Positions 1,855 through 57,390 of a stretch of DNA of 64,000 nucleotides are shown piece after piece. Numbering within the stretch: the first letter of the stretch is position 1; each line of letters starts with the position of its first letter. The stretch lies in NCBI GenBank assembly GCA_030651305.1, contig JAUSCI010000006.1, forward strand, positions 1-64,000, read 5' to 3'. The notes beneath the pieces are model-generated. The model had not been told where the DNA came from. It made no database searches and was given only the letters and a program-made list of their open reading frames with translations. The stretch comes from Sulfuritalea sp. (GTDB lineage: Bacteria > Pseudomonadota > Gammaproteobacteria > Burkholderiales > Rhodocyclaceae). Both the position numbers and the translations under genes were made by a program.

Positions 1855-1992
1855 GGCTAACCAAAACTCAAGCTATGACTTGCGAGACTTTAAAGATAAG
1901 AATTTTGGGGCCAGGTTCGCACTTATTCGCCGTTGCCGAACGAGTAGCCGTCCCGCCAGCGCCGACTTTTGCTCGCCAGCCGGCTACTGTGC

Positions 1993-2118
1993 GTCGCTGA
2001 AACTTTGCAGCGCGAAGGCGAGGGCGAACATGCCGTGGTGCATCTGATCGCCAGGCGCCTGTTCGATCACAGAGAATTGCTCGGGCGACTAGTGACGACG
2101 AGTCGGGATTTTTGCTGA
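1993..2118 (+). pseudogene. dnaE2: Remnant of error-prone DNA polymerase DnaE2 (C terminus only)
   Basis: Read in one frame, these bases encode the typical last 41 residues of DnaE2, including VVHLIARRLFDH, ELLGRL and the terminal SRDF-type ending before TGA at 2116-2118. Upstream, the frame soon leaves recognisable sequence and no polymerase domain is present in the window, so this is the tail of a deleted gene. The nucleotidyltransferase/DUF262 pair lies directly upstream, where the body of dnaE2 would be expected, so the pair may have replaced it. The match is from memory of the family C terminus and is short. Confidence 0.6.
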
Positions 2119-2143
2119 GAGCCGTGATCAGGACATCCGCGAT

Positions 2144-3679
2144 TCAGCGTGTAAAGCGCTTGTCGCCCGGCGCGGCCAGCAGCTCTCGCAACCGCGTCTT
2201 CAGCACCTTGCCGGTGTTGTTCTTCGGCAATGAATCGATCATCACATAGCGCTTGGGCCGCTTGAAGCGGGCGATGTTGTCCAGGCACAGGGCGTCGAGT
2301 TCGGCGCTGTCGGGCGCTTGCCCGCGGGCAACGATGAAGGCGATCACGATCTCGCCCCATTCGGCATCGGCCTGGCCCACCACCGAGACCTCACTCACTG
2401 CCGGATGCCGCAACAGTACTTCCTCGACTTCGCGTGGGTAGATGTTCGAGCCGCCGGAAATGATGACGTCCTTGCTGCGGTCCTTCAGCGTCAGGAAGCC
2501 ATCCTCGTCCATGCTGCCGACATCACCGGTATGCAGCCAGCCATTGCGCAAGGTTTCGGCGCTGGCACCGGGATTGTTCCAGTAGCCGGCCATCACCGTG
2601 TCGCCGCGGACCAGGATTTCGCGGATCTCGCCGGCGGGCAGCGGCCGGTCGTCGGCATCGGCGACCCTGACCTCGACGCCGGTGAAGGCATGGCCGACCG
2701 AGGCCAGGCGTTGTTCGTAGCGCGGATGCGCGGTGTCCGCATGAAGGGCCTTGTCGAGGCAGGTGATGGTCATCGGCGATTCACCCTGGCCGTAGATCTG
2801 CACCAGCTTGCAGCCGAAACGCCGCAGCGCCGCTTTGCAGTCGGCCAGGTACATCGGACCGCCGCCATAGACGATGGTCTTGAGTCCGGAAGTATCGGCA
2901 GCGCCGGGGTGATCGACCAGGCGTTTGACCATGGTCGGCGCGGCGAACATCGTGACGCCGTGGTGCGCCTGCAGCAATGCGTAAATTTCGGCCGGGTCGA
3001 AGCCGCCCGATTCGGGCACCACATTCACGCCGGCACGGGCGACGTGGGGCAGCATGTAAAAGCCCGAACCGTGCGACATCGGTGCGGCGTGGATGATGGC
3101 GTCGCCGGGGGCAATCGTGTCGACGTCGGACAAATAGTTGAGGATCGCCGCCATCGCATTGCGATGGGTCAGGGTCACGCCCTTGGGCCGGCCGGTGGTG
3201 CCGCTGGTATAGAACAGCCAGGCCGCATCGTCGGCCAGGCGCGGCGCAATAGGCATCGGCTCTGCGGTGAAAAGCCGCGCATATTGCGGCCCGTCGACGT
3301 CGATCACTTCTTCCACGCCGGCAACGGCGAGCGGGGCCAGCGCCGGGTAGAGGTCTGCGGTGGCGAAGCACAGGCGCGCGCCGCTGTCGGCGAGGATGAA
3401 TTCCAGCTCCTTCGGGTGCAGTTTGGCGTTGATCGGCACCACGGCCAGGCCGGCGTGCCAGCAGGCGAACATCAGCTCGACGTACTGCGGGCAGTTCTTC
3501 ATCACCAGGGCGACGCGGTCGCCGGGTTTCAGCCGAGCCGCCAGCCCGGCGGCAAGGCGGCCGACGCGCGCCGCCAACTCGGCATAGCTCGCCAGCAGGC
3601 GCGTGCCATGGGCCAGCGCGGGTCGTTGCGGGTGCACGTGCGCAGCACGCAAAAGCAGCTGGGCGATGTTTATGCTCAT
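2144..3679 (-). CDS. AMP-dependent acyl-CoA synthetase (fatty-acid CoA ligase type)
   Basis: The 511-residue ANL-superfamily enzyme should activate a carboxylic acid with ATP and join it to CoA in the cytoplasm. The ATP-binding P-loop is FYTSGTTGRPKGVT; later come the YGQGES motif, WLHTGDVG and a C-terminal lysine loop in PKNNTGKVLK. The length is typical. The start chosen is the ATG at 3679 (MSINIAQLLL); the frame is open a further 14 codons but that extension is not family-like. The substrate cannot be read from sequence; medium or long-chain fatty acid, or an aromatic acid, are options. It reads on the same strand as the sox genes but is separated from them by the small zinc-ribbon gene. 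Confidence 0.85.
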   Translation of the reverse strand: MSINIAQLLLRAAHVHPQRPALAHGTRLLASYAELAARVGRLAAGLAARLKPGDRVALVMKNCPQYVELMFACWHAGLAVVPINAKLHPKELEFILADSGARLCFATADLYPALAPLAVAGVEEVIDVDGPQYARLFTAEPMPIAPRLADDAAWLFYTSGTTGRPKGVTLTHRNAMAAILNYLSDVDTIAPGDAIIHAAPMSHGSGFYMLPHVARAGVNVVPESGGFDPAEIYALLQAHHGVTMFAAPTMVKRLVDHPGAADTSGLKTIVYGGGPMYLADCKAALRRFGCKLVQIYGQGESPMTITCLDKALHADTAHPRYEQRLASVGHAFTGVEVRVADADDRPLPAGEIREILVRGDTVMAGYWNNPGASAETLRNGWLHTGDVGSMDEDGFLTLKDRSKDVIISGGSNIYPREVEEVLLRHPAVSEVSVVGQADAEWGEIVIAFIVARGQAPDSAELDALCLDNIARFKRPKRYVMIDSLPKNNTGKVLKTRLRELLAAPGDKRFTR

Positions 3680-3775
3680 GGGCCGGAATGTAGCAAATTT
3701 CCGTGGGAGTTCGTCCTGCATCGCTGAACGCGTCCGCGGAACGAGCGGGCAAGAGGCGCAACAACCTGAACGATA

Positions 3776-15196: not shown

Positions 15197-17337
<2,141 letters not shown>

Positions 17338-19699: not shown

Positions 19700-20650
19700 A
19701 TGGAATTCTTCCGCATCAGAAAAGACATCCCCTTCATGCGCCATGCGCTGGTGTTCAACGTCATATCGTTGCTCACTTTCCTGCTGGCGGTTTTTTTCCT
19801 GGCCAACAGGGGACTTCATTTTTCCATCGAGTTCACCGGCGGCACTCTGCTCGAAGTGAATTACGCGCAGGCGCCGGATCTCGAGAAGTTGCGCAAGCAG
19901 ATGGAGATGGATGGTTTTACCGACACCCAGATACAGAATTTCGGTTCCTCGCGCGACGTGCTGATCCGCGTGCCTTTGTCGAAGGACGCCGAAACTTCCA
20001 AGGTGGGCGATCGCGTCATGGCCTCGCTGGCGAAAGTCGGCGCTGGCGGTACGGCGGCGATCGCCGCCCCGACCCTGAAGCGAGTCGAATTTGTCGGCCC
20101 GCAGGTGGGCAAGGAACTGGCGTCGGATGGGGCGATGGCGTTGCTGCTGGTGGTATGCGGCATCGTGCTGTATCTGGCGATGCGTTTCGAATGGCGCTTT
20201 GCCATCTCGGCCATCATCGCCAACCTGCACGACGTGGTGATCATCCTCGGCTTCTTCGCGCTGTTCCAGTGGGAGTTTTCTCTTCCCGTACTGGCGGCGG
20301 TGCTGGCGGTGCTGGGCTATTCGGTCAACGAGTCGGTGGTGGTGTTCGACCGGGTGCGCGAAACCTTCAAGAAAAAACGCGGCCTGACAACTCCCCAAGT
20401 TCTTGATCACGCCATCACCAGCACCATTTCGCGCACCATCATCACTCACGGCTGTACGCAGATGATGGTGACGTCGATGCTGATTTTCGGCGGTCCGGCA
20501 CTGCACTACTTTGCGCTGGCCCTGACCATCGGCATTTTGTTCGGCATCTATTCCTCCGTCCTGGTGGCCAGTCCGCTGGTGATGTGGATGGGCGTTTCCC
20601 GCGAACAGTTCATCCAGGTCAAGGTCGAAAAACAGGAAGCCGTGGTCTGA
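19700..20650 (+). CDS. secF: SecF, protein-export membrane protein
   Basis: The 316-residue partner of SecD has one N-terminal helix, a periplasmic part containing GLHFSIEFTGGTLLEV, and a membrane block with VLGYSVNESVVVFDRVRE, the SecF version of the SecD motif. It ends the queA-tgt-yajC-secD-secF series and is convergent with the DUF2322 gene. A GC-rich palindrome, CCTCCGCGCGGAGG, lies just after the stop but lacks a T-run. Confidence 0.96.
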   Translation: MEFFRIRKDIPFMRHALVFNVISLLTFLLAVFFLANRGLHFSIEFTGGTLLEVNYAQAPDLEKLRKQMEMDGFTDTQIQNFGSSRDVLIRVPLSKDAETSKVGDRVMASLAKVGAGGTAAIAAPTLKRVEFVGPQVGKELASDGAMALLLVVCGIVLYLAMRFEWRFAISAIIANLHDVVIILGFFALFQWEFSLPVLAAVLAVLGYSVNESVVVFDRVRETFKKKRGLTTPQVLDHAITSTISRTIITHGCTQMMVTSMLIFGGPALHYFALALTIGILFGIYSSVLVASPLVMWMGVSREQFIQVKVEKQEAVV

Positions 20651-40046: not shown

Positions 40047-42626
40047 TTACGACTTGACCAGCTTGATCAATTGGTAGAGCGTTTCCAGCGCCTCGCGCGG
40101 GCTGAGTTCGTCCGGGTTGAGATCGCGCAGGGCATCGAGCGCCGGATGCGGCGGTTCGGGCAGCGGCGGCGCGCTGGCGAACAGATCGGGCTGGGTCAGC
40201 GAACCGACTTCGCGGTTTTCCAGCAGCGACAGGCGCCGCCGCGCTTCGCGCACCACGGCGGGCGGCATGCCGGCCAGCGCGGCAACCTGCACACCATAGC
40301 TTTGCGAGGCCGGGCCTTCCTCGACCGCATGCAGAAATACGATCTTGTGGCCATGCTCGACTGCGTCGAGGTGGACGTTGGCGCACACGGGGTAATCCTG
40401 TGCCAGCCGCGTCAATTCGAAATAATGCGTCGAGAATAATGTCCAGGCGCGGTTCTTCTCGATCAGATGGCGGGCGATGGCAAAGGCCAGCGCGACGCCG
40501 TCGAAGGTCGAGGTGCCACGACCGATTTCGTCCATCAGCACCAGCGACTGGTCGGTCGCGCCGTTGAGTATTGCCGCGGCCTCGGTCATTTCGACCATGA
40601 ATGTGGAGCGTCCCGAGGCGAGATCATCCGATGCGCCGATGCGCGTGTAGATCGCATCGATCGGCCCCAGCCGGCAACGCGCGGCGGGCACGAAGCTGCC
40701 GCAGTGAGCGAGCAGTACGATCAGCGCCGCCTGACGCATGTAGGTCGATTTGCCGCCCATGTTGGGGCCGGTGATCAGCAGCATGCGGCGCGCCGGCGAG
40801 AGACGGGTGTCGTTGGCGATAAAGCTGTCGATTTGTCTTTCGACGACAGGATGACGGCCGTCCTCGATCTCGATCGCGGCCTCGTCGCAAAACTCCGGCT
40901 GGCGGTAATCGTGGCGCACGGCGGCCGTGGCAAAGGCGGTCAGGCCATCGAGTTCGGCAATGGCGCGGGCGATGCGCTGCAGAACCGGAATGTGGATCGC
41001 CAGCGCGGCCAGCAGTTCTTCCCAGAGCTGCTTCTCCAGCGCCAGTGCACGTTCGTTGGCCGACAGCGCCTTGTCCTCGAAACTCTTCAACTCCGGCGTG
41101 ATGTAGCGTTCGGCGTTCTTCAGCGTCTGGCGACGGCGATAGTCGTCGGGAATCTTTTCGACATTGGCGTGGGTGACCTCGATGTAGAAGCCATGCACCT
41201 TGTTGAACTCGACCTTGAGATTACTGATGCCGCTGCGTTCGCGTTCGCGGGCTTCGAGTTCGATCAGGAAGGCGCCGCAGTTGTGCTGGATTGCCCGCAA
41301 TTCGTCGAGGTGGGCGTTGTATCCCGGCGCGATGACGCCGCCTTCGCGAATCAGCGCGGCAGGTTCCACAGTAACGGCTTCGGTCAGCAGGCTGACGCAG
41401 GCTTGTGGGGTGGCCAGTGCGTCGGCCAGTTCGTTGAGCCGTGTCGCCGTACCGTCAGCGCCGACTCTTGTGCGAATGCTGTCGAGGCGGGCGAGGCTGT
41501 CGCGCAGCGAGGACAGGTCGCGCGGTCGGGTGCTCTTCAGGGCGATGCGGGCGGTGATGCGGTCAATGTCGGCGAAGCCGGACAAGGCTTTCGCCAGCGC
41601 GGCGAACGGCCCGTTGCCGGCCTCGCCGATCAGTGCGGCGACAGCTTCGTGGCGCGCGCGGGGAATGCTGCGCTCGGTTAGCGGGTGATGCAGGCAGTGG
41701 CGCAGCCAGCGCGAACCCATGCTGGTGGCACAGGTGTCGAGCAGCGAAAGCAGGGTTGGACTCGCTTCGCCGCGCAGGGTTTCGGAGATTTCAAGGTTGC
41801 GCCGGGTGGCAGCATCGAGTCGCAGAAAGCTGCCTTCGCGTTCCACGATCAGTTGAGTGACGTGGGCCAGCGCCTGCAACTGCGTCGCCTGTGCATAGCG
41901 GTAGAGCGCACCGGCGGCGGCCAACGCCAGTTCTTCGTCATGCACACCGAAGCCGGCCAGGTCGCGGCTGCCGAAGTGCTCGGCCAGAGCGTGCGCGGCG
42001 GCACGGGTGTCGAAATGCCAATCGGGTAGATGCTGGCTGACGGCGCGGCTTTCCGGCAAGCCCGAGCGCAGGCCGTCGGGCAACAGCAATTCGGCCGGAC
42101 GCAGGCGCTCGAAGTGCGAGGGGAGGGCGTCGAGCGAGGTTTCCAGCAGGCGCAGGTCGCCGTTGGCGAGGTTGAGCCAGGCCAGCCCCGCGCGCTGGCG
42201 GTCGATGGTCAGTGCCAGCAGCAGGCTGTCGCTGCGGTCGTCGAGCAGGTTGGCGTCGGTCAGCGTGCCGGGCGTGACGATGCGCGTCACCGCGCGTTCC
42301 ACCGGGCCCTTGGCCAGCGCCGGGTCGCCGATCTGTTCGCAGATCGCCACGGAGACGCCGAGCTTGACGAGCTTGGCCAGGTAGCCGTCGACCGCGTGGT
42401 AGGGAATGCCGGCCATGGCGATGGGCTTGCCGGCCGACTGGCCGCGCGCGGTCAGCGTGATGTCGAGCAGGCGCGCGGCCTGCTGGGCATCCTCGTAGAA
42501 CAGTTCGTAAAAATCCCCCATGCGGAAGAACAGCAGCTTGTCCGCATGCTCCGCCTTGGCGCGCAGCCATTGCTGCATGACGGGAGTGTGCGCCGCCAGT
42601 TCGGTGGCAGATCTGGCTTGGGGCAT
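40047..42626 (-). CDS. mutS: MutS, DNA mismatch-recognition ATPase
   Basis: The 859-residue protein recognises mismatches and starts repair. Domain I has the mismatch-reading FYELFYEDA; the ABC-type ATPase has Walker [17 protein letters not shown], signature region [11 protein letters not shown] and Walker [17 protein letters not shown]. The C-terminal helices end in a short tail. I use ATG 42626; a GTG at 42647 lies inside vapC. With either start there is no room for an independent promoter region after vapC. Confidence 0.96.
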
Positions 42627-43051: not shown

Positions 43052-43314
43052 CAGCCGCGCCTTTGCTCGCGAATTGCCGCGACGGCGTCCGGCTCGCCCT
43101 GCCAGTGTTGGGTGACCAGTGCCGACAGTCGATCCAACTCGCGGTTGAACGATTCGATCTCTTGCTGTTTATCACCAGTTGGCGCCGTGGCGTCAGCGCC
43201 GACTTCCCGGCGCAAGAGGTTGGTCAGCCAGTCCTTCATGCTCAACCCTTGCAAGGCCGCAGTGGCCTTGGCCCGGCGGAAGAGGTCATCGGGCATTTCG
43301 ATGGTAGTTTTCAT
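43051..43314 (-). CDS. vapB: Ribbon-helix-helix antitoxin (VapB-like)
   Basis: The 87-residue protein starts KTTIEMPDDLFRRAKATAA, a ribbon-helix-helix DNA-binding domain, followed by a charged tail that would bind the toxin. It sits upstream of the PIN gene with a one-base overlap, the usual antitoxin-first order. One copy of the dispersed AGTCGGCGCT motif lies inside it. Confidence 0.82.
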   Translation of the reverse strand: MKTTIEMPDDLFRRAKATAALQGLSMKDWLTNLLRREVGADATAPTGDKQQEIESFNRELDRLSALVTQHWQGEPDAVAAIREQRRG

Positions 43315-45060: not shown

Positions 45061-45128
45061 ATGCAAATAAAACTTGACCCTGACGCCAGGTCTTTCTACC
45101 ATTTCAGCAAATACTAATAGATTCCTCC

Positions 45129-45881: not shown

Positions 45882-45897
45882 AAAGATCGGGATGCCT

Positions 45898-45922
45898 ATA
45901 CTTGATAAAAATGCTCAGGTAT
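45898..45922 (+). promoter_or_regulatory. Type 1 IscR operator / iscR promoter
   Basis: ATACTTGA (45898-45905) and TCAGGTAT (45915-45922) form a dyad with a 9-base centre. This fits the type 1 IscR site, where Fe-S IscR represses its own operon. It lies 47 bases before the iscR start and contains TTGATA as a possible -35. Confidence 0.6.
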
Positions 45923-45968
45923 TGTTCCTGATGCGTTTCTCAACCGTATTACCCGACGGAGAATAAAC

Positions 45969-46460
45969 ATGAGACTGACGACCAAAGGACGTTTTGCAGT
46001 AACCGCAATGATCGATCTCGCCCTGCGCCAGCACAATGGCCCGGTCACCCTCGCGGGTATCAGCGAGCGGCAGAAGATTTCCCTTTCATATCTTGAGCAA
46101 TTGTTCGGCAAATTGCGTCGGCGTCAGCTTGTCTCCAGTGTGCGTGGACCGGGCGGCGGCTATTGTCTGGCGCAACCGCTGGAAGCCATTTCGGTTTCCA
46201 CCATCATCCATGCCGTCGACGAGTCGCTGGATGCAACCAATTGCGGCGGCAAGGGTACTTGTGCGGAAGACCTGCGTCCCTGCATGACTCATGAATTGTG
46301 GACCAGCCTGAATGAAAAGATGTTCGAGTACCTCAATTCGGTCAGCTTGGCCGAACTCGTGGCTCAGCAACGGGAGAAGAGCGGTGCCGCCGCCGTGCTG
46401 CACGACGAACGTCCGCTGCGTCGCGTGCGTCGTCCGGCCGAGGAACTCATCGCTGCCTGA
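45969..46460 (+). CDS. iscR: IscR, Fe-S regulator of the isc operon
   Basis: The 163-residue Rrf2 protein begins [20 protein letters not shown] with a winged helix whose recognition part is [20 protein letters not shown]. The three cluster cysteines are in the stretch [18 protein letters not shown], with the histidine ligand nearby. It should repress the operon when loaded with a [2Fe-2S] cluster. Confidence 0.96.
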
Positions 46461-46489
46461 CAGCTCCCGAAAAGAGTCCGGACCGCGCC

Positions 46490-47647
46490 ATGTTCTCCCC
46501 CGTCTATTTCGACCACAACGCCACCACGCCGCTGGATCCGCGCGTGCTGGAAGGCATGCTGCCGTATCTTGCGGCGCAGTACGGCAATGCCTCCAGTCGT
46601 CACGAATACGGCCGTGCGGCGCGGCGTGCGATCGACGAGGCGCGGCAGCGCGTGGCCTTTGCGGTGGGAGCGCATCCGACGGAAGTGGTGTTTACCAGCG
46701 GCGGTTCGGAAGCCAACAATCTTTTCATCAAGGGTGCGGCCGCTTGCCTTGCGCCGGGGCTGGTGGCGATCTCCGCCATTGAACATCCCTGCGTGCGTGA
46801 GCCGGCAAAAGCTTTGCGACGCGCCAGCTGGAGATTGAGAGAGATCGCTGTCGATGACAATTGCCGTGTCGCCAGCGCCGACTTTCAGGCGGTACTGGAA
46901 GAAAAGCCGGCGCTTGTTTCCGTCATGCTGGCCAACAATGAAACCGGTGCCGTACAAGACATAAGCACTCTTGCCGCGCAGGCCAGGTCGACACGGGCAT
47001 GGTTTCACACCGACGCGGTGCAGGCTTTCGGCAAACGTCCGGTGAACTTTCGTGCCTTCAACGACGCCGGCGTGCATGCCTTGACGCTTTCCGCGCACAA
47101 GCTGGGCGGGCCGAAGGGCGCAGGCGCGCTGGTAGTCGACAAGCGTGTCGAACTGCAGCCGCTGATCGCCGGGGGCGGCCATGAACGCGGTCTGCGCTCC
47201 GGCACCGAGAACGTCGCGGCGATTGTCGGTTTCGGCCTCGCCGCCGAACTGGCGATGGCCCGGCTCGATACGCGTCAAACACAGCTCGCGGCCTTGCGTA
47301 CGGAACTTGAGGCCGGACTTGTGGCGCAGGGTGCGACGATATTCGCCGGCGCTGCCGAGCGCCTGCCGAATACAAGCTACTTTGCCTTCGCCGGCATCGA
47401 TGGCGAAACGCTGGTCGGCAAGCTTGATCGCGCCGGGTTTGCCGTGGCGGCCGGGGCCGCCTGTTCCAGCGCCAATCCGGAGCCCTCGCATGTGCTGCTG
47501 GCGATGGGCGTCGCACCGTCGCTGGCGCGCGGCGCCGTGCGGGTGAGTTTTGGCGCGGACAATACCGTTTCGCAGGTGCGTGATTTTTTCACTGCACTGA
47601 ACACTACAATCGTGCAACTCAAGGGTCTCACGGCCCTGGCAAGCTGA
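46490..47647 (+). CDS. Second cysteine desulfurase (class V aminotransferase) before iscS
   Basis: The 385-residue NifS/IscS-family enzyme binds PLP through the lysine in [12 protein letters not shown]. The sulfur-accepting loop [14 protein letters not shown] carries the active cysteine, but it is shorter and differently worded than in IscS downstream. The two adjacent genes are clearly diverged paralogues: they differ along most of their length. It follows iscR by 29 bases and precedes iscS by 16, so it is part of the same operon. Confidence 0.88.
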
Positions 47648-47663
47648 CCTGGAGAAATTTGCA

Positions 47664-48875
47664 ATGAAACTGCCGGTGTACCTCGACTATTCCGCTACCA
47701 CGCCGGTTGATCCGCGCGTCGCGGCGAAGATGATTCCCTGGCTGACCGAGCATTTCGGCAACCCGGCCTCGCGTTCCCACTCCTATGGTTGGGAAGCCGA
47801 GAAGGCCGTCGAAGAGGCGCGCGAAGAAGTGGCCGCCCTGGTCGGTGCCGACGCCAAGGAAATCATCTGGACCTCGGGCGCCACGGAATCCAACAATCTG
47901 GCGATCAAGGGCGCTGCGCATTTTTACGCCGCGACCAAGGGCAAGCACATCATCACCGTATCCACCGAGCACAAGGCGGTGTTGGACACGGTCAAGGAAC
48001 TCGAACGCCAGGGCTTCGAGGCGACCTACCTGGTACCCCAGGACAACGGGCTGATTACCGTCGAACAGTTCAGGGCGGCGCTGCGGCCCGATACCGTGGT
48101 GGCTTCGGTGATGGCGGTGAACAACGAGATCGGCGTGATCCAGCCGCTGGCCGAGATTGGCGAGCTATGCCGCGAAAAAGGTGTGATCTTCCACGTCGAT
48201 GCAGCGCAGGCCACCGGCAAGATGCCGATCGATCTGGCTGCGCTGAAGGTGGACCTGATGTCCTTCTGCGCGCACAAGACCTATGGCCCCAAGGGCATCG
48301 GCGCGCTGTACGTCAGGCGTAAGCCGCGCATCCGGCTGGAAGCGCAGATGCATGGCGGCGGCCACGAGCGCGGCATGCGTTCGGGTACTTTGCCAACCCA
48401 CCAGATCGTCGGCATGGGCGAATGCTTCCGCTTGGCGCGCGTCGAAATGGCCACCGAAAACGAACGCATCCGCATGCTGCGCGACAGGTTGCTCAAGGGT
48501 CTGCTCGACATCGAGGAAACCTATGTCAATGGCGACATCGAGCAGCGCGTGCCGCACAACCTGAATGTCAGCTTCAACTTTGTCGAAGGCGAGTCGCTGA
48601 TCATGGCGATCAAGGACATCGCCGTGTCGAGCGGCTCGGCATGCACTTCGGCCAGTCTCGAACCCTCCTATGTGCTGCGTTCGCTGGGACGCTCCGACGA
48701 ACTGGCGCACAGTTCGATTCGCTTTACCCTCGGTCGTTTCACGACCGAAGAAGAAATCGATTTCACGATCAAGCTGCTGCACGACAAACTGGGCAAACTG
48801 CGCGAACTTTCCCCGCTTTGGGAAATGTTCAAGGACGGCGTTGATCTCAACAGCGTCCATTGGGCTGCACATTGA
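47664..48875 (+). CDS. iscS: IscS, cysteine desulfurase
   Basis: The 403-residue enzyme takes sulfur from cysteine for Fe-S clusters, thiolated tRNA and other uses. PLP binds at the lysine of [15 protein letters not shown]. The mobile loop [18 protein letters not shown] holds the active cysteine and is the IscS form. The C terminus reaches the usual [12 protein letters not shown]. Its TGA stop lies inside a strong hairpin. Confidence 0.97.
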
Positions 48876-48903
48876 TGCGGTAGGCCGCATCAATGTGCAG
48901 CCC
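48862..48903 (+). other. 19-bp perfect hairpin on the iscS stop codon
   Basis: GGGCTGCACATTGATGCGG (48862-48880) pairs fully with the bases 48885-48903, with the 4-base loop TAGG. The iscS stop at 48873-48875 is within the left arm, so ribosomes finishing iscS must open it. A T-run is lacking, so it is not a simple terminator. It separates iscRS-type genes from iscUA-hscBA in the mRNA. Confidence 0.8.
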
Positions 48904-48933
48904 TTTGGGCAAAATGAACTACCCACCCCCCGA

Positions 48934-48954
48934 CCCCCGCCCCGAGGGCGGGGG
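48934..48954 (+). other. GC hairpin between iscS and iscU
   Basis: CCCCCGCCC (48934-48942) pairs with GGGCGGGGG (48946-48954), 9 bp of G-C pairs with a 3-base loop, 30 bases after the large hairpin. It looks like a repeat-type intergenic hairpin and precedes the iscU ribosome-binding site AGGAG. Confidence 0.65.
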
Positions 48955-48986
48955 CGACTAGTAAGAAATACTTTAGGAGTAGCATC

Positions 48987-49370
48987 ATGGCATATAGCGA
49001 AAAAGTACTGGATCACTACGAAAACCCGCGCAACGTCGGTTCCTTTGCCAAGGACGATGACGGCATCGCGACCGGCATGGTCGGCGCACCGGCCTGCGGC
49101 GACGTCATGAAATTGCAGATCAAGGTCGGCAAGGACGGTGTCATTGAAGACGCCAAGTTCAAGACCTATGGCTGCGGCTCGGCGATTGCCTCGTCGTCGC
49201 TGGTGACCGAATGGGTCAAGGGCAAGACGCTGGACCAAGCGCTGGAGATCAAGAACACCCATATCGCGGAAGAGCTCGCGTTGCCGCCGGTCAAGATTCA
49301 CTGCTCGATCCTCGCCGAGGATGCGATCAAGGCCGCCGTGGCCGATTACAGAAAGAAACAGGGAGCTTGA
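48987..49370 (+). CDS. iscU: IscU, Fe-S scaffold protein
   Basis: The 127-residue scaffold has its three cluster cysteines in [25 protein letters not shown] and [11 protein letters not shown]. The HscA-recognition motif LPPVK precedes the last cysteine. The AGGAG ribosome-binding site is close to ATG 48987. Confidence 0.97.
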
Positions 49371-49372
49371 CT

Positions 49373-49774
49373 ATGTCCGCCTGCACCACACCCGATGCCA
49401 CCGTCACGCCTCAGGTTCCGCCTGCAACCTGGCAGGGCAGCGAGAGCGCCAGTCCGGTGACCCTCAGCGCGCGCGCCGCCGACCACATCGCCAAATACAT
49501 CGCCAAGCGCGGCAAGGGCATCGGCATTCGTCTCGGCGTCAAGACCTCGGGTTGCTCGGGAATGGCCTACAAGCTGGAATTCGCCGATGCGGCGGAGCCG
49601 GAAGATCACATCTTCGATAGCAATGGCATCAAGGTGCTGGTCGATCCCAGGAGCCTGCCTTACCTGGCCGGTACCGAACTCGACTATGCGCGCGAGGGCC
49701 TAAACGAGGGCTTCAAGTTCAACAACCCGAACGTCAAGGATGCCTGCGGTTGCGGCGAATCGTTCAACACTTGA
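49373..49774 (+). CDS. iscA: IscA, A-type Fe-S carrier
   Basis: The 133-residue protein has the A-type cysteines in [11 protein letters not shown] and the closing ACGCGESF. An N-terminal extension of about 27 residues ([19 protein letters not shown] and on) precedes the core, longer than in E. coli IscA. ATG 49373 follows AGGGAG. It is two bases after iscU. Confidence 0.92.
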
Positions 49775-49781
49775 ATCGCTG

Positions 49782-50324
49782 ATGACCACGTTTGACCTCA
49801 ATTTCGCCGCCGACCATTTCACGCTGTTTGGCCTGCCGCGTGTACAGGCGCTCGATCTGGGCAACCTCGAAAATTGCTTTCGCGACATTCAGGCCCAGGT
49901 GCATCCGGACAAGCACGCGCATGCCGCTGACGCCGACCGGCGTCTGGCCATGCAGTGGTCGACGCGGATCAATGAGGCGTTCCAGACGCTCAAGTCGCCG
50001 GGCAAGCGCGCCCGCTATCTGCTGGCATTGCTCGGACATGATCCGCAGATAGAAAGCAACACGACGATGCCCGTGGAATTTCTGATGAGTCAGATGGATT
50101 TGCGTGAAGCCGTGATGGAAGCCCGGGCGGCATCTGACGAAGAAAAGCTGGAGGCCGTCAGGTTGACTCTGTTGAACGAAATCAGGGCGGACTACGAACG
50201 GCTTGCCGGGTTGATCGATGTCACCAGGGATTTCACCGCGGCGGCCAGTCTGGTGCGACAACTGATGTTTCAGGAAAAACTGCTCAACGAAATCGACGAC
50301 GCGCTCGAAGCCGTCACTGCGTAG
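49782..50324 (+). CDS. hscB: HscB, J-type co-chaperone
   Basis: The 180-residue co-chaperone delivers IscU to HscA. The J-domain HPD is in AQVHPDKHAHAA, and the C-terminal three-helix IscU-binding domain follows (MDLREAVMEARAASDEEKL). It starts seven bases after iscA. Confidence 0.94.
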   Translation: MTTFDLNFAADHFTLFGLPRVQALDLGNLENCFRDIQAQVHPDKHAHAADADRRLAMQWSTRINEAFQTLKSPGKRARYLLALLGHDPQIESNTTMPVEFLMSQMDLREAVMEARAASDEEKLEAVRLTLLNEIRADYERLAGLIDVTRDFTAAASLVRQLMFQEKLLNEIDDALEAVTA

Positions 50325-50333
50325 AATCAGAAT

Positions 50334-52202
50334 ATGGCACTTCTTCAGATTGCGGAGCCGGGAGACTCCGCCGCCCCGCACGAACATCGTCTTGCGGTCG
50401 GCATTGATCTAGGCACCACCAACTCTTTGGTCGCTACCGTCAGGAGCGGCATGAGCGTGGTGCTCAACGACGTGCGCGGGAGGCCGCTGCTGCCCTCGGT
50501 GGTCCGCTATGACGTCGACGGCAGCGTTGAAGTGGGCTACGGCGCGGAAGCCAGGCAGTCCATCGATCCCAAGAACACCATACTTTCGGTAAAGCGCTTC
50601 ATGGGCCGTGGGCGGCACGATATCGCCCACATCGAAACCCTGCCCTATGATTTCGTCGATGCAGAAGGCATGGTCAAGCTGAAGACCATTGCCGGCGTAA
50701 AGAGTCCGGTCGAGATCTCGGCGGAAATCCTGAAGACGGTACGCAATCGGGCCGAAGCGTCGCTGGGTGGCGAACTGACCGGTGCCGTGATCACCGTGCC
50801 GGCCTATTTTGACGACGCCCAGCGTCAGGCCACCAAGGATGCCGCGCGCCTCGCCGGCCTGAATGTGTTGCGCCTGTTGAATGAACCGACGGCCGCCGCC
50901 ATTGCCTATGGCCTGGACAATTCGGTTGAGGGTATCTACGCCGTGTTCGACCTCGGTGGCGGCACCTTCGATATCTCGATCCTGCGTCTGTCGAAAGGCG
51001 TCTTCGAGGTCATGGCGACCGGAGGCGACTCAGCCCTGGGCGGTGATGATTTTGACCACCGCATCTTCTGCTGGATCATCGAACAGGCGAAGCTGGCGCC
51101 GCTGTCGCCGCAGGACGCGCGGCTGCTGCAAATGCGTGCCCGTGAAGCCAAGGAGCAGTTGTCCCAGCACGGCCAGGCACCGATCACGGTCAAACTCGGC
51201 AGCGGCGAATACGTTGATCTGGTGCTGACTACCGAGATATTTACCGAGATCTCCCGCACCCTGGTGCAGAAGACCATCGCGCCGAGCAAGAAGGCGCTGC
51301 GCGACGCTGGCCTGACGGTGGCCGATGTACGCGGTGTGGTGATGGTGGGCGGTTCGACGCGGATGCCGCAAGTGCAGCACGCGGTGGCTGAGCTTTTCAG
51401 GCAGGAACCGCTCAACAATCTGGACCCGGACAAGGTCGTGGCGCTTGGCGCGGCGATCCAGGCCAACCTGCTGGCCGGTAACCGCGCCGCCGGCGATGAC
51501 TGGCTGCTGCTCGACGTGATCCCTCTGTCGCTGGGTCTGGAGACGATGGGCGGCCTGGTGGAAAAGGTCATTCCGCGCAACTCGACCATTCCGGTTGCGC
51601 GCGCACAGGAATTCACCACCTTTAAGGATGGTCAGACGGCGATGGCGATCCAGGTAGTACAGGGCGAACGCGAACTGGTCTCCGACTGCCGCAGCTTGGC
51701 ACGGTTCGAATTGCGCGGAATACCGCCCATGGTGGCGGGTGCCGCGCGCATTCGCGTTACTTTCCAGGTCGATGCGGACGGGCTGCTCTCCGTCACGGCG
51801 CGCGAACAGACCAGCGGCCGCGAGGCACACATCGAGGTCAAGCCGGCCTACGGCCTGAGCGATGGTGAAATTGCGGGCATGCTCAAGGACAGTTTCAGCC
51901 ACGCCGGTGATGACGCCTTTCGCCGTGCCTTGCGCGAGGCGCAGGTGGAGTCGCAGCGTTTGATCGAGGCGACCCAGTCGGCGCTCGACGATGCCGCAGA
52001 CCTGCTGTCCATCCTGGAGCGTGCGCATATCGATGCCGCAGTGGCCAAATTGCAAAGCGTGATGACTGGTGACGATCGCCGCGCCATTGACGGCGCCATG
52101 CAAGCCTTGAGCGCCGCCACCAACGAATTTGCCGCGCGGCGCATGAACCAGAGCGTGAGGCGTGCGCTCGCCGGACGAAATATCGACCAGATATCACCAT
52201 GA
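50334..52202 (+). CDS. hscA: HscA, Hsp70-type chaperone of the Isc system
   Basis: The 622-residue Hsp70 releases clusters from IscU using ATP. The nucleotide-binding domain has [27 protein letters not shown] and [14 protein letters not shown]; the substrate-binding domain starts near residue 390. Its last bases overlap the fdx start (ATGA). Confidence 0.96.
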
Positions 52203-52543
52203 CGCAGATCATTGTTCTACCCCATGTCGAGTTGTGTCCCGATGGCGCGGTCATCGATGTCGCGCCGGGAACGTCGCTCTGCGATGCGCTGCTCGGCAAC
52301 GATATCGAGATCGAGCATGCCTGCGAGAAATCCTGTGCCTGCACCACCTGCCATGTCGTCGTGCGCGAGGGTTTCAATTCGCTCGCGGCGGCCGAGGACA
52401 TCGAGGAGGATCTGCTCGACAAGGCCTGGGGCCTGGAGCCCAACTCGCGTCTTTCCTGCCAGGCTCTTGTTGGCCAGGTTCCCCTGGTGATAGAGATTCC
52501 GAAGTACACCATCAACATGGTCAAGGAAGGGCACAAGAAATGA
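52199..52543 (+). CDS. fdx: Isc-type [2Fe-2S] ferredoxin
   Basis: The 114-residue adrenodoxin-like ferredoxin has the cysteine set C-x5-C-x2-C in [16 protein letters not shown] and the fourth cysteine in LSCQALV. It donates electrons during cluster assembly. The start overlaps hscA and its stop overlaps iscX. Confidence 0.96.
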
Positions 52544-52734
52544 AGTGGACCGACAGCCTTGAAATTGCCATGGCACTTGCCGAAGCGCACCCGGAAGTGG
52601 ATCCGACTCGCATCAATTTTGTCGACCTGATGGACTGGGTCATGGCGCTGCCGGGCTTCGAGGAAAACGAGAATCACTGCGGCGAAAAGAAGCTCGAAGC
52701 GATTCAGCAGGCGTGGATCGACGAGTTGGAGTAG
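52540..52734 (+). CDS. iscX: IscX, small acidic Isc regulator
   Basis: The 64-residue acidic protein reads [20 protein letters not shown] and LMDWVMALPGFEEN, as in IscX/YfhJ. It binds IscS and ferrous iron in characterised relatives. Its ATG overlaps the fdx stop; it is the last isc gene here. Confidence 0.93.
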   Translation: MKWTDSLEIAMALAEAHPEVDPTRINFVDLMDWVMALPGFEENENHCGEKKLEAIQQAWIDELE

Positions 52735-52737
52735 TCG

Positions 52738-53511
52738 ATGCTGGTCGACACCCACTGTCATCTGGATGTCGCCGAGTTTGATGGCGACCGGGCTGCGGTG
52801 GCGGATGCGGCAACGCAGGCCGGGGTAGGGCGGATCGTGGTGCCTTCGATAGAGCGTGCCAATTTCGGCGCAGTCGCTTCGGTTTGCCGCGATTATTCCG
52901 GCTGCGTTGCGGCCTATGGAATTCATCCGATGTACGTGGACGGTGCCATGGAGGCGGACCTCGATGCCCTGCGAGAAACAGTTCTGCGCGAACATCCCGT
53001 GGCTGTAGGCGAGATTGGTCTCGATCGATTCGTCGAGCCGCGTGACGATCGGCGGCAGGAGTTCTATTTCGAATCCCAATTGGAGATCGCTCGCGATGCG
53101 AAATTGCCGGTGCTGTTGCATGTTCGACGTGCCATCGATCAGGTGCTGAAAGCTTTGCGGCATTGTCGCGTGTCCGGCGGAATTGCCCATGCGTTCAACG
53201 GCAGCCGGCAGCAAGCCGACGAATTCATCAAGCTCGGTTTCAAACTGGGTTTCGGCGGAGCGATGACCTTTCCACGCGCCAGCCGCATCCGCGAACTTGC
53301 CGCGACCTTGCCGCTCGATGCCATCGTGCTGGAAACCGATGCACCGGATATTCCGCCCGAGTGGCGAGTCGGCGCTCGCAACACGCCGGACCAACTGCCA
53401 CGCATTGCGCAGGTGCTTGCCAGTTTGCGTGGAATTACAGTACAAGAGCTTGCCGAGGCCACTACGGCCAATGCCGCCGCGGTGCTTCCCGCGCTGGCCA
53501 GGATTCACTAG
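52738..53511 (+). CDS. TatD-family metal-dependent hydrolase
   Basis: The 257-residue TIM-barrel protein begins [15 protein letters not shown], whose HxH binds metal. Other ligands fall in [24 protein letters not shown] and [11 protein letters not shown]. Many relatives are DNases. It starts three bases after iscX, possibly read from the isc operon. Confidence 0.88.
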
Positions 53512-53557
53512 AATCGACTACAGCTTCCCCCCAACCCACCTCAATCAGGAGCTACCC

Positions 53558-54061
53558 ATGAGTACAACCATAAGCCTGCGCGGCACCCCCGTTCGCGTTG
53601 ATGGCGACCTTCCCGCCGCCGGAGCCAAGGCCCCGGACTTCAAACTGACCAGCGCGGCGCTGGCCGATGTCTCGCTCAAGGACTTTGCCGGCAAGCGCAA
53701 GGTAATGAATATTTACCCAAGTATCGATACCCCGACCTGCGCCACCTCGACGCGCAAGTTCAACGAAGCCGCCGGAGATATGGCGAACACTGTCGTACTC
53801 TGCGTTTCAGGAGATCTGCCCTTCGCCGCCAAGCGCTTCTGCGAACTGGAGGGCCTGAAGAACGTCGCTCACCTGTCCACCTTCCGCCATCCGGAGTTTC
53901 TAAAGGCTTGGGGTGTGGCCATGGCCGACGGACCGCTGGCCGGACTTACGGCCCGCGCCGTGGTGGTACTCGACGAGAACGACAAGGTGATCCACAGCGA
54001 AATGGTGCCGGAGATTGCGCAGGAGCCAAACTACGCGGCAGCGCTGAAGTCGCTGGGCTGA
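53558..54061 (+). CDS. tpx: Tpx, atypical 2-Cys thiol peroxidase
   Basis: The 167-residue periplasm-lacking peroxidase has the peroxidatic cysteine in [17 protein letters not shown] and the resolving one in FAAKRFCE. It reduces hydroperoxides with thioredoxin. AGGAG precedes ATG 53558. A strong terminator follows, after one copy of the dispersed 10-mer. Confidence 0.95.
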
Positions 54062-54083
54062 CGGGTGCAGGCGCCGTATCGTC

Positions 54084-54093
54084 AGCGCCGACT
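54084..54093. repeat. Representative copy of the dispersed AGTCGGCGCT motif
   Basis: This decamer (minus orientation here) also occurs at 1958-1967, 16000-16009, 20035-20044, 41457-41466, 43195-43204, 46874-46883, 53367-53376 and 56604-56613, with one-mismatch copies at 38293-38302 and 57373-57382. Flanks agree further: most copies read close to GAAAGTCGGCGCTSRCG. Three full copies are outside genes although little of the window is non-coding. Confidence 0.7.
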
Positions 54094-54101
54094 CTTGAAA
54101 A

Positions 54102-54134
54102 ACAAACGGGAGCTTCGGCTCCCGTTTGTCTTTT
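54102..54134 (+). terminator. Terminator after tpx
   Basis: ACAAACGGGAGC (54102-54113) and GCTCCCGTTTGT (54118-54129) pair fully over 12 bp around a TTCG tetraloop, then CTTTT. The same AACGGGAGC stem recurs near 57391 and 59216. Confidence 0.9.
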
Positions 54135-54176
54135 GCGCTGCGAGTCGCTGAGGTTTTGATTGGATCGCTTACGGCC

Positions 54177-54253
54177 TTGGATTCAACCGGTGGATGCAAC
54201 ACACTAGAAACTGCGTAAGCAGACGGAGTGTTGCATCCACCGGTTGAATCCAA
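54177..54253. mobile_element. 77-bp miniature element with 26-bp terminal inverted repeats (IS30-like ends)
   Basis: The ends TTGGATTCAACC...ATGCAACAC and their reverse complement at the right form perfect inverted repeats around a 25-base centre. GGCC stands on both sides (54173-54176 and 54254-54257) and could be a target duplication, although it is itself palindromic, so the repeat reads as 30 bp. From memory, GATTCAA near the edge and GCAACA inward resemble IS30-family ends. No transposase is present, so it would depend on another copy. It marks the left border of the accessory island. Confidence 0.6.
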
Positions 54254-54465
54254 GGCCAAGAGTTGCGTTCGACAATTTTCTCCAAGCGGACCGCCGCACC
54301 AAGTCTCTCAAACAGCCCATCGTCATCTGTCCGTACTATCATTACGTATGCGGACAGGCAACTTGAGTGCATCCATAATGAATCCGTTGGTTACAGCGGC
54401 CCGACATGTTCTGCGATTATCAATATGCGGACTAGTAGGCTCGTTGGACAACTGTTAGGTTGCGT

Positions 54466-55395
54466 ATGGAACGTGGCACCAATAAAGCGAAGATGCACCA
54501 CTTCGTTCCTCGCTCCTATCTCGCTCGCTTCGCAGACGATCAAGGATTTGTTCACGTGTACGACCGCAACACGCGAAGCCTTCGAAGGCAGCGCCCTAAA
54601 AATGTAATGAAGATCAACTCATACTACCGCCAAGAGTGGGCTCCCGAGGGAGTTGACCCGAACATCATGGAAATGATGCTCGGTGAATGGTTGGAAGCCG
54701 AAGCCAAGGGAGCTATTGATCGACTAATAGAAGCACCCGCTCAACTAACCGACGACGATACAGCAAACCTCATGGCTTACATTGAGTTGCAACGGACTCG
54801 CGTCCCGAGGCAAGCGGCAACGGCCAAAGCGCTCATGCGGGCCACCATTCTGCGTATAGCCCCGCCAGCTGCGGTCAAAGCAATAACATCAGGTGAGGTG
54901 CAGCTGAAAATCAAGGACTCTGCTCGCTTTGACTACATGCGCATGATGGTTGGTATGCTATCTCCATGGTTTGGCCGGATGGAATGGGAAGTGTTTGAGG
55001 CAGATGGCGGAGCGTCGTTCATCGCAACGGATAGCCCAGTCTCGTTCTACAACTCATCTATCCTGCCGCCAGCCGAGGCCGGGATTGGATTGGCCGGAAC
55101 AATGGTCTTCTTCCCGCTCAGTTCGCGGCACACGCTCGTGATGCGCCATCCCGAGTACAGTCAGATTGGCGCCGCTTCCCCGCTCGATGTTCTTCCTACG
55201 CCCAAGCATGAGGATGGTCAGATACCAATCATTCATGGAGCGATATGGAGCCGCGAAGTCGTGGACAACTTCAATTGGAAGTTGGTGCAGCTATCTTCGC
55301 GGTTGATCGTTGCGGAAAGCTCGGAGGTGCTGAGCCGGTGCATCAGCAAAAAGGGGGAGTCAATCCCATCAGTCAACATTGGCGCTGCACGATGA
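54466..55395 (+). CDS. DUF4238 domain protein
   Basis: The 309-residue protein opens with MHHFVPRSYLARFAD close to its N terminus and HVYDRNTRSLRRQRPKNV, the DUF4238 pattern (HHxxPxxYLxxFA). The HHxxP part looks like a possible catalytic or metal site but no activity is established. ATG 54466 follows TTAGG; a TTG six bases earlier is possible. Composition is less GC-rich than the isc genes. It lies between the miniature element and the nuclease-like gene, so acquisition is likely. Confidence 0.7.
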   Translation: MERGTNKAKMHHFVPRSYLARFADDQGFVHVYDRNTRSLRRQRPKNVMKINSYYRQEWAPEGVDPNIMEMMLGEWLEAEAKGAIDRLIEAPAQLTDDDTANLMAYIELQRTRVPRQAATAKALMRATILRIAPPAAVKAITSGEVQLKIKDSARFDYMRMMVGMLSPWFGRMEWEVFEADGGASFIATDSPVSFYNSSILPPAEAGIGLAGTMVFFPLSSRHTLVMRHPEYSQIGAASPLDVLPTPKHEDGQIPIIHGAIWSREVVDNFNWKLVQLSSRLIVAESSEVLSRCISKKGESIPSVNIGAAR

Positions 55396-55441
55396 TGTCG
55401 CGCAGCGTCGGTTGCTTTGAACATTAGGGCTCAGCGCATCT

Positions 55442-56440
55442 GTGGCTATATCTCTCGAAGATCGTTTTATCCAGTTCATAATGTCGATTCCCGGGACGGA
55501 ACTGATTGATGCAATCGACCTACCAAAGGATTCGACGAAGAGGCGAAAAGCAGACTTTCTTCTTGAAAATCGCCGCATCGTTGTTGAGTTGAAAACTCTT
55601 ACCGTCGATACCTCGCACAAGATCGACGTCGAGGTTGAAAAGCACCGCCAGAGAGATGATTTTCCGCTCTTCTATGGGAAAGCGGACTTTCGCAAGGTAA
55701 TGTCTCACCTGTCAGATGGCGAGCAAATCTATCGACGTACCTTCGGAGCAATTACGAGGTCTGTCGAAGACGCAGTCCGCTCGGCAGAGGAGCAAATTTC
55801 CCATACGCGCCATGTGCTAAATCTTCAGAACTCTGTTGGCATACTAGTGATCCTCAATGAATCAGTTGAGCTACTTAGCCCGGATGTCGTTGGCTACAAG
55901 GTCGCCAACCTTATGCGTCGTAGTCGTACCGGCAACTCCACGTCCGAAAAACTCGATTTTGCGTGGCTACTATTCGAGAGTCATTCGCTTAGCACATCAT
56001 CCGGCTTTCAAGCCTTTCCCAGTATGCTGATCGAGGGGGAAGGGGCGATCAACTTTCCGTGGTTCAGCGATTTTCACTATAGCCTTCACCAGCGATGGGC
56101 TGAACACAATGGAGCACAGTTCGTTGACGGCGGAAGTCCGAATCCAGAGGAGATCCAGTTTACGTCGGCGCTCGGACTATCTGAACCCGAGCCAACTCAC
56201 ATGCGCCGGCAAGAGCTATGGCAGAGACAGTACGATGCCAAGCCTCATTTGCGCCATTTGAGTGATGCAGATTTACTTGAGTATGGAAAAGAGTTACTGA
56301 CGCGGCTCGCACCACATTTCTTGAAAGGCGGGCATGGATTTGTTCGTGAGGTAGTTATGCCACAAATGGAAGAGTTCACCTGCTTCTTGCAGGAAGCAAA
56401 CCACCGCGGGCTCGATCTTCGCAACATTCCTAAGCCCTAA
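55442..56440 (+). CDS. PD-(D/E)XK-like putative nuclease
   Basis: The 332-residue protein starts at GTG 55442. Residues about 34-53 read KADFLLENRRIVVELKTL, an acidic residue in a strand followed by ExK, the core of the PD-(D/E)XK nuclease fold. No helicase or specificity domain is seen; the C-terminal half carries no recognisable motif. It follows the DUF4238 gene by 47 bases and may be co-transcribed. Function is inferred only from the motif. Confidence 0.55.
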   Translation: MAISLEDRFIQFIMSIPGTELIDAIDLPKDSTKRRKADFLLENRRIVVELKTLTVDTSHKIDVEVEKHRQRDDFPLFYGKADFRKVMSHLSDGEQIYRRTFGAITRSVEDAVRSAEEQISHTRHVLNLQNSVGILVILNESVELLSPDVVGYKVANLMRRSRTGNSTSEKLDFAWLLFESHSLSTSSGFQAFPSMLIEGEGAINFPWFSDFHYSLHQRWAEHNGAQFVDGGSPNPEEIQFTSALGLSEPEPTHMRRQELWQRQYDAKPHLRHLSDADLLEYGKELLTRLAPHFLKGGHGFVREVVMPQMEEFTCFLQEANHRGLDLRNIPKP

Positions 56441-56797
56441 TCCATTGTAGCAGGGGGCGCTGCGCGATAAAGCCGCGCCGCGCTTCTGAACTCAGATGTG
56501 AATGTCCGTTCTTTTAGCCGGCCTACTTCCGCTTTGGGCACGAAGCGGCATGATGGTCGCCAGTGGATCAAAGGGGGAGAATTGAATTGGCATAGCGGTT
56601 GAAAGTCGGCGCTCGCGACACGGCAATAGTCTGTCGGTGGAAGTAAAGAACCCGCCTCACTCGCCGCTGCGGGTCGCCGCCGGATAAGAGGAGGGCTGCT
56701 GATGCGGCTCTTCTTTTATCCGCTGAAAGGAAAGGAATAGAGGGCAGACCACGGTTTCCCCGCTAGCTTTCCGAATTACCGGGGGTACAATTAACCG
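56441..56797. other. Non-coding stretch with hairpin at 56681-56722
   Basis: No gene is supported here. One copy of the dispersed decamer is at 56604-56613. CGGATAAGAGGAG (56681-56693) pairs with CTTCTTTTATCCG (56710-56722) over 13 positions, two of them G-U in plus-strand RNA, around a 16-base loop. The brnT start lies 75 bases on, so its promoter is expected near 56730-56790. Confidence 0.45.
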
Positions 56798-57034
56798 ATG
56801 TTGATCGAGTTCGATTCCGCAAAGCGCGAGAAAACCCTGCTCGACTGCGGTCTGGATTTTGCGGATGCTCCGAAGATATTCGCCGGCCAACATTTCACGT
56901 TGGCGGATGAGCGTGTCGACTATGGTAAGGAACGCTTTGTCTCTGTCGGTCGGCTGGTTGAGCGAGTCGTGGTGCTGACGTGGACGCCCCGTGGCGAGGT
57001 TCGCCGCATTATTTCGATGCCGGTATGCCAATGA
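56798..57034 (+). pseudogene. brnT: BrnT toxin with C-terminal frameshift
   Basis: Residues 1-72 match BrnT: FDSAKREKTLLDCGLDFADA, then DYGKERFVSVG and VVLTWTPRGEVRRIISM. After RRIISM the frame ends PVCQ and stops at 57034. Removing one C at 57020-57021 restores RYANEREKARYTQYLD and a stop at 57071, the normal BrnT ending (90 residues). So a one-base insertion truncates the toxin by about 12 residues. The missing part includes a conserved basic helix end. The stop overlaps the BrnA start (ATGA). A sequencing error is the simplest alternative. Confidence 0.75.
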
Positions 57035-57300
57035 GCGCGAAAAAGCCCGTTACACCCAGTACCTTGATTGACCCCGACGACGCTCCGGAACTGACGGAGG
57101 CATGGTTCCAGCGGGCCGATCTGCATGAGGGCGAGAAACTGCTGCGCCGTGGCCGTCCTCCGGCGGAGGTCACCAAGACTCCGATCAAACTTCGGCTCGA
57201 CCCGGATATCATCGATGCGTTCAAAGCCAGCGGACGAGGCTGGCAAACGCGTATGAACGACGCCCTGCGGGATTGGTTGAAATTACATTCCGCCGTCTGA
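57031..57300 (+). CDS. brnA: BrnA antitoxin
   Basis: The 89-residue ribbon-helix-helix protein carries the family block LTEAWFQRADLHEGEKLLRRGRP and ends RLDPDIIDAFKASGRGW...MNDALRDWLK. It neutralises BrnT and represses the operon in relatives. It is intact, in contrast to the toxin. ATG 57031 overlaps the truncated brnT stop. Confidence 0.88.
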   Translation: MSAKKPVTPSTLIDPDDAPELTEAWFQRADLHEGEKLLRRGRPPAEVTKTPIKLRLDPDIIDAFKASGRGWQTRMNDALRDWLKLHSAV

Positions 57301-57390
57301 CTCATCGAACGCCAGACGGGCTTGATGCGCAGGGCACCGCAGCCGGTCGGACCGATCAATCGCCGTCCCGCTGGCGCCGACTTTCCAAAA

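Follow-up and report, generated by a model that had tools for sequence, protein, structure and literature searches.

A genus-wide 26-bp repeat of Sulfuritalea as a probable DNA uptake sequence

A repeated sequence scattered over the genomes of Sulfuritalea and its kin is probably a DNA uptake sequence. It was noticed in a stretch of 64,000 nucleotides of Sulfuritalea sp. (contig JAUSCI010000006.1, assembly GCA_030651305.1; this whole stretch is called the window below), where a preliminary description had recorded a decamer in both orientations and likened it to uptake sequences. Most of the tests proposed in that description came out on the same side, uptake itself, which we infer, being unproven; we give this reading a probability of about 0.7. 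The decamer, AGTCGGCGCT, forms the core of a longer unit, RARAGTCGGCGCTGGCGRNACGGCGA, of about 26 bp, which was derived from 67 aligned instances in 464 kb. The unit consists of two GC-rich modules, has no AT tracts, is non-palindromic and is found in both orientations. The flanks of the copies had already been said to agree; their agreement is real and extends further than was noted.

First, the abundance of the element is not that of a random word. In the 3.9-Mb genome from which the window comes, the decamer occurs 210 times in forward and 259 times in reverse orientation (469 copies), and the same word read backwards 19 and 16 times (35 copies), so that the genome-wide count is 13 times its control. 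The 210/259 split is a mild imbalance, contig orientation being arbitrary; the closed genome G002 has 274 and 277. Site analysis of this genome was made on a sample of 781 kb, in which the decamer is the most over-represented 10-mer among those seen at least 12 times (109 copies, where a Markov model predicts 8.4). A 31-column matrix that contains the 26-bp unit (33 bits), used with a threshold of 16 bits, finds 145 sites there, and none in Markov sequence or with the reversed matrix. This is a density of 186 sites per Mb, at which the whole genome would contain about 720. Site scores have a bimodal distribution: 117 sites score above 30 bits, and just 27 fall in the range of 4 to 16 bits, where Markov sequence gives 38 and the reversed matrix 18. 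Nearly all decamers (103/109) fall within sites of at least 16 bits. Left halves of at least 15 bits that lack the full unit number only 6, and from this scarcity it follows that the two modules are kept together. Other repeated words in the same sample are TGTGTCCTCTG-like (12-13 copies) and TTTCACGTTTCA-like (12-15 copies).

In the window, ten exact decamers stand against a mean of 0.26 and a maximum of 2 in 100 dinucleotide shuffles, in agreement with the earlier estimate of well under one copy. All nine positions given for exact copies were right; the total was not, since a tenth copy at 51976 on the forward strand had been overlooked. The sites below were listed with the 31-column model at 12 bits or more; genic or intergenic status is that of a simple gene caller, and gene names are by Pfam, which agrees with the earlier assignment of copies to queA (the gene at 15197-16228), secF, mutS, a desulfurase-type gene and tatD.

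1945..1970, reverse strand: 26-bp element, 37.2 bits; called intergenic, after the GmrSD_N gene
15997..16022, forward strand: 26-bp element, 39.1 bits; within queA, where it encodes KVGAGETA
20032..20057, forward strand: 26-bp element, 40.1 bits; within secF
41444..41469, reverse strand: 26-bp element, 39.0 bits; within mutS
43182..43207, reverse strand: 26-bp element, 30.0 bits; called intergenic
46861..46886, reverse strand: 26-bp element, 39.6 bits; within an aminotransferase class-V (desulfurase-type) gene
51976..51985, forward strand: exact decamer without the right module, in an Hsp70-family gene; not listed as a site
53364..53389, forward strand: weak element, 20.6 bits; within tatD, decamer exact and right module poor
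54071..54096, reverse strand: 26-bp element, 39.4 bits; called intergenic
56601..56626, forward strand: 26-bp element, 33.2 bits; called intergenic
57360..57385, reverse strand: 26-bp element with core AGTCGGCGCC, 31.8 bits; called intergenic

The decamer at 51976 is probably a chance match and not an element. Two one-mismatch copies had also been reported; the one at 57373 belongs to the full site of 31.8 bits in the last line, and the one at 38293 lacks the right module and is not a listed site.

The placement of the sites speaks to two simple explanations. The gene caller assigns 83% of the sampled DNA to coding sequence and puts 101 of the 145 sites within genes, 43 between genes and 1 at an edge; about 17% of the DNA being called non-coding, intergenic sites are at some 1.8 times the non-coding share, an enrichment that the preliminary description had proposed to look for. 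Genic sites on the strand of the gene are mostly in one codon phase (50/58, read as VGAGxTA), and those on the opposite strand are in two (42/43; 23 and 19). The common frame is what an artefact of codon usage or composition would give. However, synonymous shuffling leaves 4.7 decamers (sd 2.3) where 73 coding copies are observed, so that codon use accounts for about 5 of them; it was rejected as the cause on this ground, and since the sites also lie in both orientations and in non-coding DNA and change dialect in every class (see below), such an artefact can practically be set aside. A regulator binding site or a transcription terminator, which was the alternative offered at the outset, would fit the intergenic excess. 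It fits poorly with the majority of sites called within genes. Only one pair of sites lies within 150 bp, and its orientation is not inverted; the unit folds no better than shuffles (z -0.49 and 0.40), and terminator-like matches in window positions 41001-58000 are at chance level (17 vs 16.5). Pairing, folding and match counts thus reject a terminator or hairpin as the general cause, and regulation as a whole is extremely improbable, although some intergenic copies could have been co-opted as regulatory sites or terminators. Neighbouring sites are on the same strand in 59 cases and on opposite strands in 61, which is the strand balance that had been proposed as a check. The mean spacing is 5.1 kb, and gaps shorter than 1 kb are rarer than chance (13 vs 23.9, sd 3.9).

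The element is confined to one clade among the genomes searched. In the genus, that is Sulfuritalea and its kin, 30 of 31 genomes are enriched in the decamer, the exception being G016 (43 copies vs 45 in the control); the richest is G005, 99% complete, with 665 copies. No clear excess was seen in 30 relatives outside the genus (6 from other genera of the family and 24 from other families of the order), which have at most 41 copies, the largest ratio being 6 copies against 1 in the control (G042). A 22-mer form was counted in 369 genomes of the class, a draw that included the genome of the window but no other member of the genus: this genome has 217 copies, and two others have 1 and 2. A scan of named sequences for the perfect 26-mer selected at least 116 stretches. 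Their labels, as recorded, are mostly Sulfuritalea, Sulfurisoma, Rhodocyclales or Rhodocyclaceae and uncultured beta, and more rarely Rugosibacter, Sulfurimicrobium, Burkholderiaceae, Betaproteobacteria, Proteobacteria and Gammaproteobacteria. NCBI taxonomy places Sulfuritalea in Sterolibacteriaceae. The clade concerned comprises environmental Betaproteobacteria known mostly from metagenomes.

How the sites arose can be followed where homologues are alignable. In queA, the site is strong (at least 29.8 bits) in 22 of 24 loci of the genus; it is weak in G016, and G021 lacks it. Of the 15 outgroup matches, six were aligned, and none of the six has a gap within the site; two of them differ by 1-2 codons about four codons upstream of it. 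The outgroups read AGSADTALF-like where the genus reads VGAGETALF, and this gapless alignment with differing residues means that codons were replaced. In 11 of the 24 loci (L176, L179, L180, L183-L185, L187-L190 and L194), the queA site is accompanied by a weaker one in the opposite orientation, at a distance of about 285-294 bp. For the element-bearing proteins of the genome itself, homologues below 35% identity or with E above 1e-15 were dropped, and 9 of 101 have an outgroup homologue spanning the site in 576 kb of outgroup DNA; 5 of these are gapless at the site, and 4 are gapped, in variable stretches. Similarly, a phage PAPS reductase was compared with three more distant relatives, of which L475 alone covers the site; aligned with it, the site shows replaced residues and no gap. 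Where alignable, the sites therefore appear to have arisen by substitution rather than insertion.

Sites are also kept at orthologous places, as had been suggested as a check. Among 24 counterparts of the genome's own sites in the named stretches, 16 score as sites and 7 are gapped, and the ungapped ones have a mean identity of 0.87 in the site against 0.73 in the flanks, a comparison that favours sharing because the stretches were picked for the perfect unit. In 13 other stretches with the C dialect, 2 of 3 counterparts score as sites. A mobile or repetitive element, scattered through the genome by insertion as REP or MITE elements are, would account for the sharp class of near-identical 26-bp units. 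It might also be seen in L093, where 36 extra bases lie between the two modules at 7244 (the counterpart in the genome of the window is intact), and in one of the four gapped proteins, L015_15505, whose homologue lacks 11 residues over the site. The replaced codons in queA, in the five proteins and in the phage gene disfavour insertion, as do the single codon phase of most same-strand genic sites and the lack of a hairpin beyond chance, and we regard a mobile origin as very improbable.

Within the genus, the sites of one clade have changed together. A variant with T in place of C, AGTTGGCGCT (the AGTT dialect), has 407, 483 and 504 copies in G001, G015 and G027, and 4-26 in the other 28 genomes. 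In the same three genomes the C form falls to 95, 114 and 92 copies, still two to three times the control. T is found at 75 of 84 sites in 462 kb of their DNA and, in the gene-called part, in all classes: 24/26 non-coding or edge sites, 16/19 opposite-strand sites and 30/34 same-strand sites. All five of the own sites with an aligned counterpart in these genomes show the change from C to T. In a tree of the Tex protein with 18 rows from the genus and 5 from the sister genus, the three genomes group together as a clade (96/94), and G016 branches off first within the genus. G016 has a thin tail of weak, degraded sites; nine sites of the window's genome could be aligned with it, and three of them still score. 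Loss of sites is the simpler reading of this state, and an ancestral low-copy condition is the alternative. The sisters G021 and G025 also have low decamer counts, 124 and 170. In 103 kb of G025, there are 6 sites of at least 16 bits and no third dialect.

The element is also present in viral contigs. The 22-mer is found in at least 120 stretches of IMG/VR contigs, compared with 1 for the reversed pattern; the T form alone has no match in these contigs. The 120 stretches, which were chosen by the 22-mer motif itself, form 80 clusters, and none of them matches the sampled host DNA over 200 bp (blastn). Of 20 proteins from six viral stretches, 15 match PHROGs families, among them tail fibre J, head, tail, integrase, ParB and methyltransferase, and the remaining 5 match nothing. 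Beyond one site per stretch, there are 62 further sites in 1.08 Mb of viral DNA, or 58 per Mb, and named host stretches treated in the same way have 147 per Mb. In the viral stretches the simple gene caller reaches a coverage of 65%, so the phage split into genic and intergenic sites was not used. One further candidate, a 20-bit site in a phage tail-protein gene (L339, 9688), was rejected as a probable chance near-match; site-free homologues read VGTGRTAT-like there. Two predicted proteins, from viral L334 and L414, agree over the element and the 12 residues preceding it and then diverge, as if the sequence had been switched at the site.

Two other functions have to be weighed here. One is an intracellular self-mark, in which a nuclease or defence complex spares DNA with the 26-mer, and chromosome and phages are selected to carry it. 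The other is a site that organises or segregates the chromosome; matS, KOPS, Chi and parS are sites of these kinds. Both are consistent with the scarcity of short gaps. The self-mark would also fit the viral contigs and the failure to find ComEA in motif bearers (see below). However, no such nuclease or complex was identified, no search aimed at one having been made; a host that dies without its marks could hardly let them decay as in G016, and a switch such as that of the AGTT clade would pass through a state in which DNA is unmarked. Carriage by phages, moreover, has a precedent in the uptake signal sequence (USS), which accumulates in Pasteurellacean phages according to an excerpt of PMC6776037; for this reason, the motif in viral contigs is not evidence against uptake. 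We therefore consider a self-mark unlikely. A chromosome site would agree with the genome-wide occurrence and with the two modules being kept together. It would not be expected in viral contigs, the absence of enrichment in G016 and the restriction to one genus among the genomes searched are against it, and polarity of the KOPS or Chi type is disfavoured by the lack of local strand bias. This function seems quite improbable.

DNA uptake would explain these patterns as follows. A receptor on the cell surface, probably part of a competence type IV pilus, would prefer the tag, and the cell would take up DNA of its kin. Alleles that resemble the tag by chance would be taken up and recombined more often, and the tag would accumulate by point mutation, in both orientations, where genes tolerate it. 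It would also accumulate in phages that live as prophages. If the preference of the receptor changed, sites would shift together, as in the AGTT dialect; if it were lost, they would decay, as in G016 and perhaps in G021 and G025. We infer the receptor, the uptake bias and the drive from the behaviour of the sites.

The competence genes that had been proposed as a check give a mixed answer. Of the 31 genomes of the genus, 30 have ComEC; DprA exceeds the cut-off in 20 of 23 (the exceptions are G001, G005 and G013) and PilQ in 22 of 23. Neisserial DNA uptake sequences (DUS) are read by the minor pilin ComP. Pilin-like open reading frames (ORFs) were read in 21 stretches; operon types are patchy, and by eye none tracks the presence or dialect of the motif. 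ComEA was searched with PF12836 in all 31 genomes and with TIGR00426 in 23. Matches to HHH_3 in the 30 motif bearers are long ORFs only (546-1061 aa), most of them of Tex length, and the two long ORFs scanned, one from G001 and one from G016, are both Tex. G016 alone has three smaller HHH_3 proteins, one of which is GspK (T2SSK domains). The other two, of 160 and 209 aa, are paralogous HHH proteins that look secreted and have a ComEA-like layout:

L529, 660-1142: ComEA-like HHH protein of G016
L532, 1420-2049: ComEA-like HHH protein of G016

An ORF of 223 aa in G034, from the sister genus, resembles ComEA and also has a weaker match to T2SSK.

Several of these and earlier observations weigh against DNA uptake. 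None of the 30 genomes that bear the motif yielded ComEA (PF12836; TIGR00426 in 22 of them), and the ComEA-like layout occurs in motif-poor G016 and not in the motif-rich genomes, the opposite of what simple competence predicts; either ComEA has diverged or been replaced in the motif bearers, or the motif is not for canonical transformation. In G005, a nearly complete genome with the highest decamer count, no match to DprA exceeds the cut-off. Pilins of PF16732 (ComP_DUS) occur in all but one of the 31 genomes of the genus and in most of the order, so that no receptor is singled out. The L015_15505 homologue, taken alone, could mean insertion. The coefficient of variation of the gaps (0.86 vs 0.99, sd 0.10) is weakly below random, and the site density of 186 per Mb by the model is lower than that of DUS or USS. 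The longest site-free stretch of the window, 20060-41440 (21.4 kb), holds housekeeping genes (purB-, pepA-, lptFG-, ilvB-, ilvC- and leuA-type by Pfam), which means that site deserts are not simply foreign DNA. In the open-licence literature, preprints excluded, no paper was found on Sulfuritalea and natural transformation, nor on Sulfuritalea and a DNA uptake sequence, Rhodocyclales and an uptake sequence, or the 14-mer itself; Rhodocyclaceae are unmentioned in the papers among the matches listed.

According to parts of a 2025 paper (PMC12616744), and similarly of PMC7811141, Neisseriaceae and Pasteurellaceae are the only families known with sequence-specific uptake. The genus may thus hold a third, independently evolved system for sequence-specific uptake of self-DNA. 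It would span a genus-wide clade and have its own dialect; the tag would be bipartite and 26 bp long, its receptor would be new, the periplasmic step would lack a recognisable ComEA, and phages would carry the tag. This larger proposal is tentative, and we would call it close to an even bet. If true, an independent third case, with a dialect switch and a motif-poor basal genome in one genus, would allow a comparative test of the drive model and of receptor choice. It would also mean that environmental bacteria can strongly prefer the DNA of their kin, and the element could serve as a host tag for viral contigs.

Some neighbouring features may be mentioned. The window contains a GmrSD_N (restriction-type) gene at 805-1854 and a Schlafen AlbA_2 gene at 57719-59167, possible defence or mobile islands. 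GC content falls to about 0.52 at positions 1-2000 and about 0.53 at 54001-56000. Other repeats occur in relatives: stretches L271-L280 of G001 have about 49 CRISPR-array-like repeats with the words GAGGATTGAAAC and GGCCCGCGAGGG, and stretches L281-L290 of G034 have a REP-like word, TGTGGGAGCGGC, with 37 copies in 200 kb, which is unrelated to the 26-bp element.

Among known systems, HIP1 of cyanobacteria is a short palindromic word over-represented genome-wide, in and out of genes. The present element shares this distribution, but it is 26 bp long, is not palindromic and has a dialect. Chi and KOPS are also over-represented words, of about 5-8 bp and polar along a chromosome arm; here the unit has 26 bp and no local strand bias. 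REP and MITE repeats are inserted sequences, usually palindromic, unlike the gapless sites of queA, the phage gene and 5 of 9 proteins, and the unit does not fold beyond shuffles. The closest likeness is to DUS and USS, which the element resembles in its abundance, its two orientations, its spread within and between genes, its origin by substitution where alignable, the rarity of its short gaps and its dialect. The DUS of Neisseriaceae is unrelated in sequence to the consensus of the element. Its conserved CTG is also present in this unit, which may be chance. DUS are 10-12 bp long, whereas the unit here has about 26 bp in two modules; inverted pairs are not seen here, and ComEA is not found in the motif bearers. 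The likeness lies in the host, which is betaproteobacterial in both, and in over-represented 10-mers present in hundreds to thousands with dialects by clade, as described for Neisseriaceae in a portion of PMC3630211. The USS of Pasteurellaceae, whose hosts belong to another bacterial class, has a GCGG core with AT tracts and a mean spacing of about 1 kb in an excerpt of PMC7811141, in contrast to the GC-rich bipartite unit and the 5.1 kb found here. The same excerpt describes USS as evolving by point mutation and as having a core with flanking segments, the full-length motif being about 31 bp in the uptake model. In these respects the element resembles USS, as it does in being found in viral contigs, USS being known from phages (PMC6776037, in part), and in its orientation bias within genes, which a section of PMC2346458 describes for USS.

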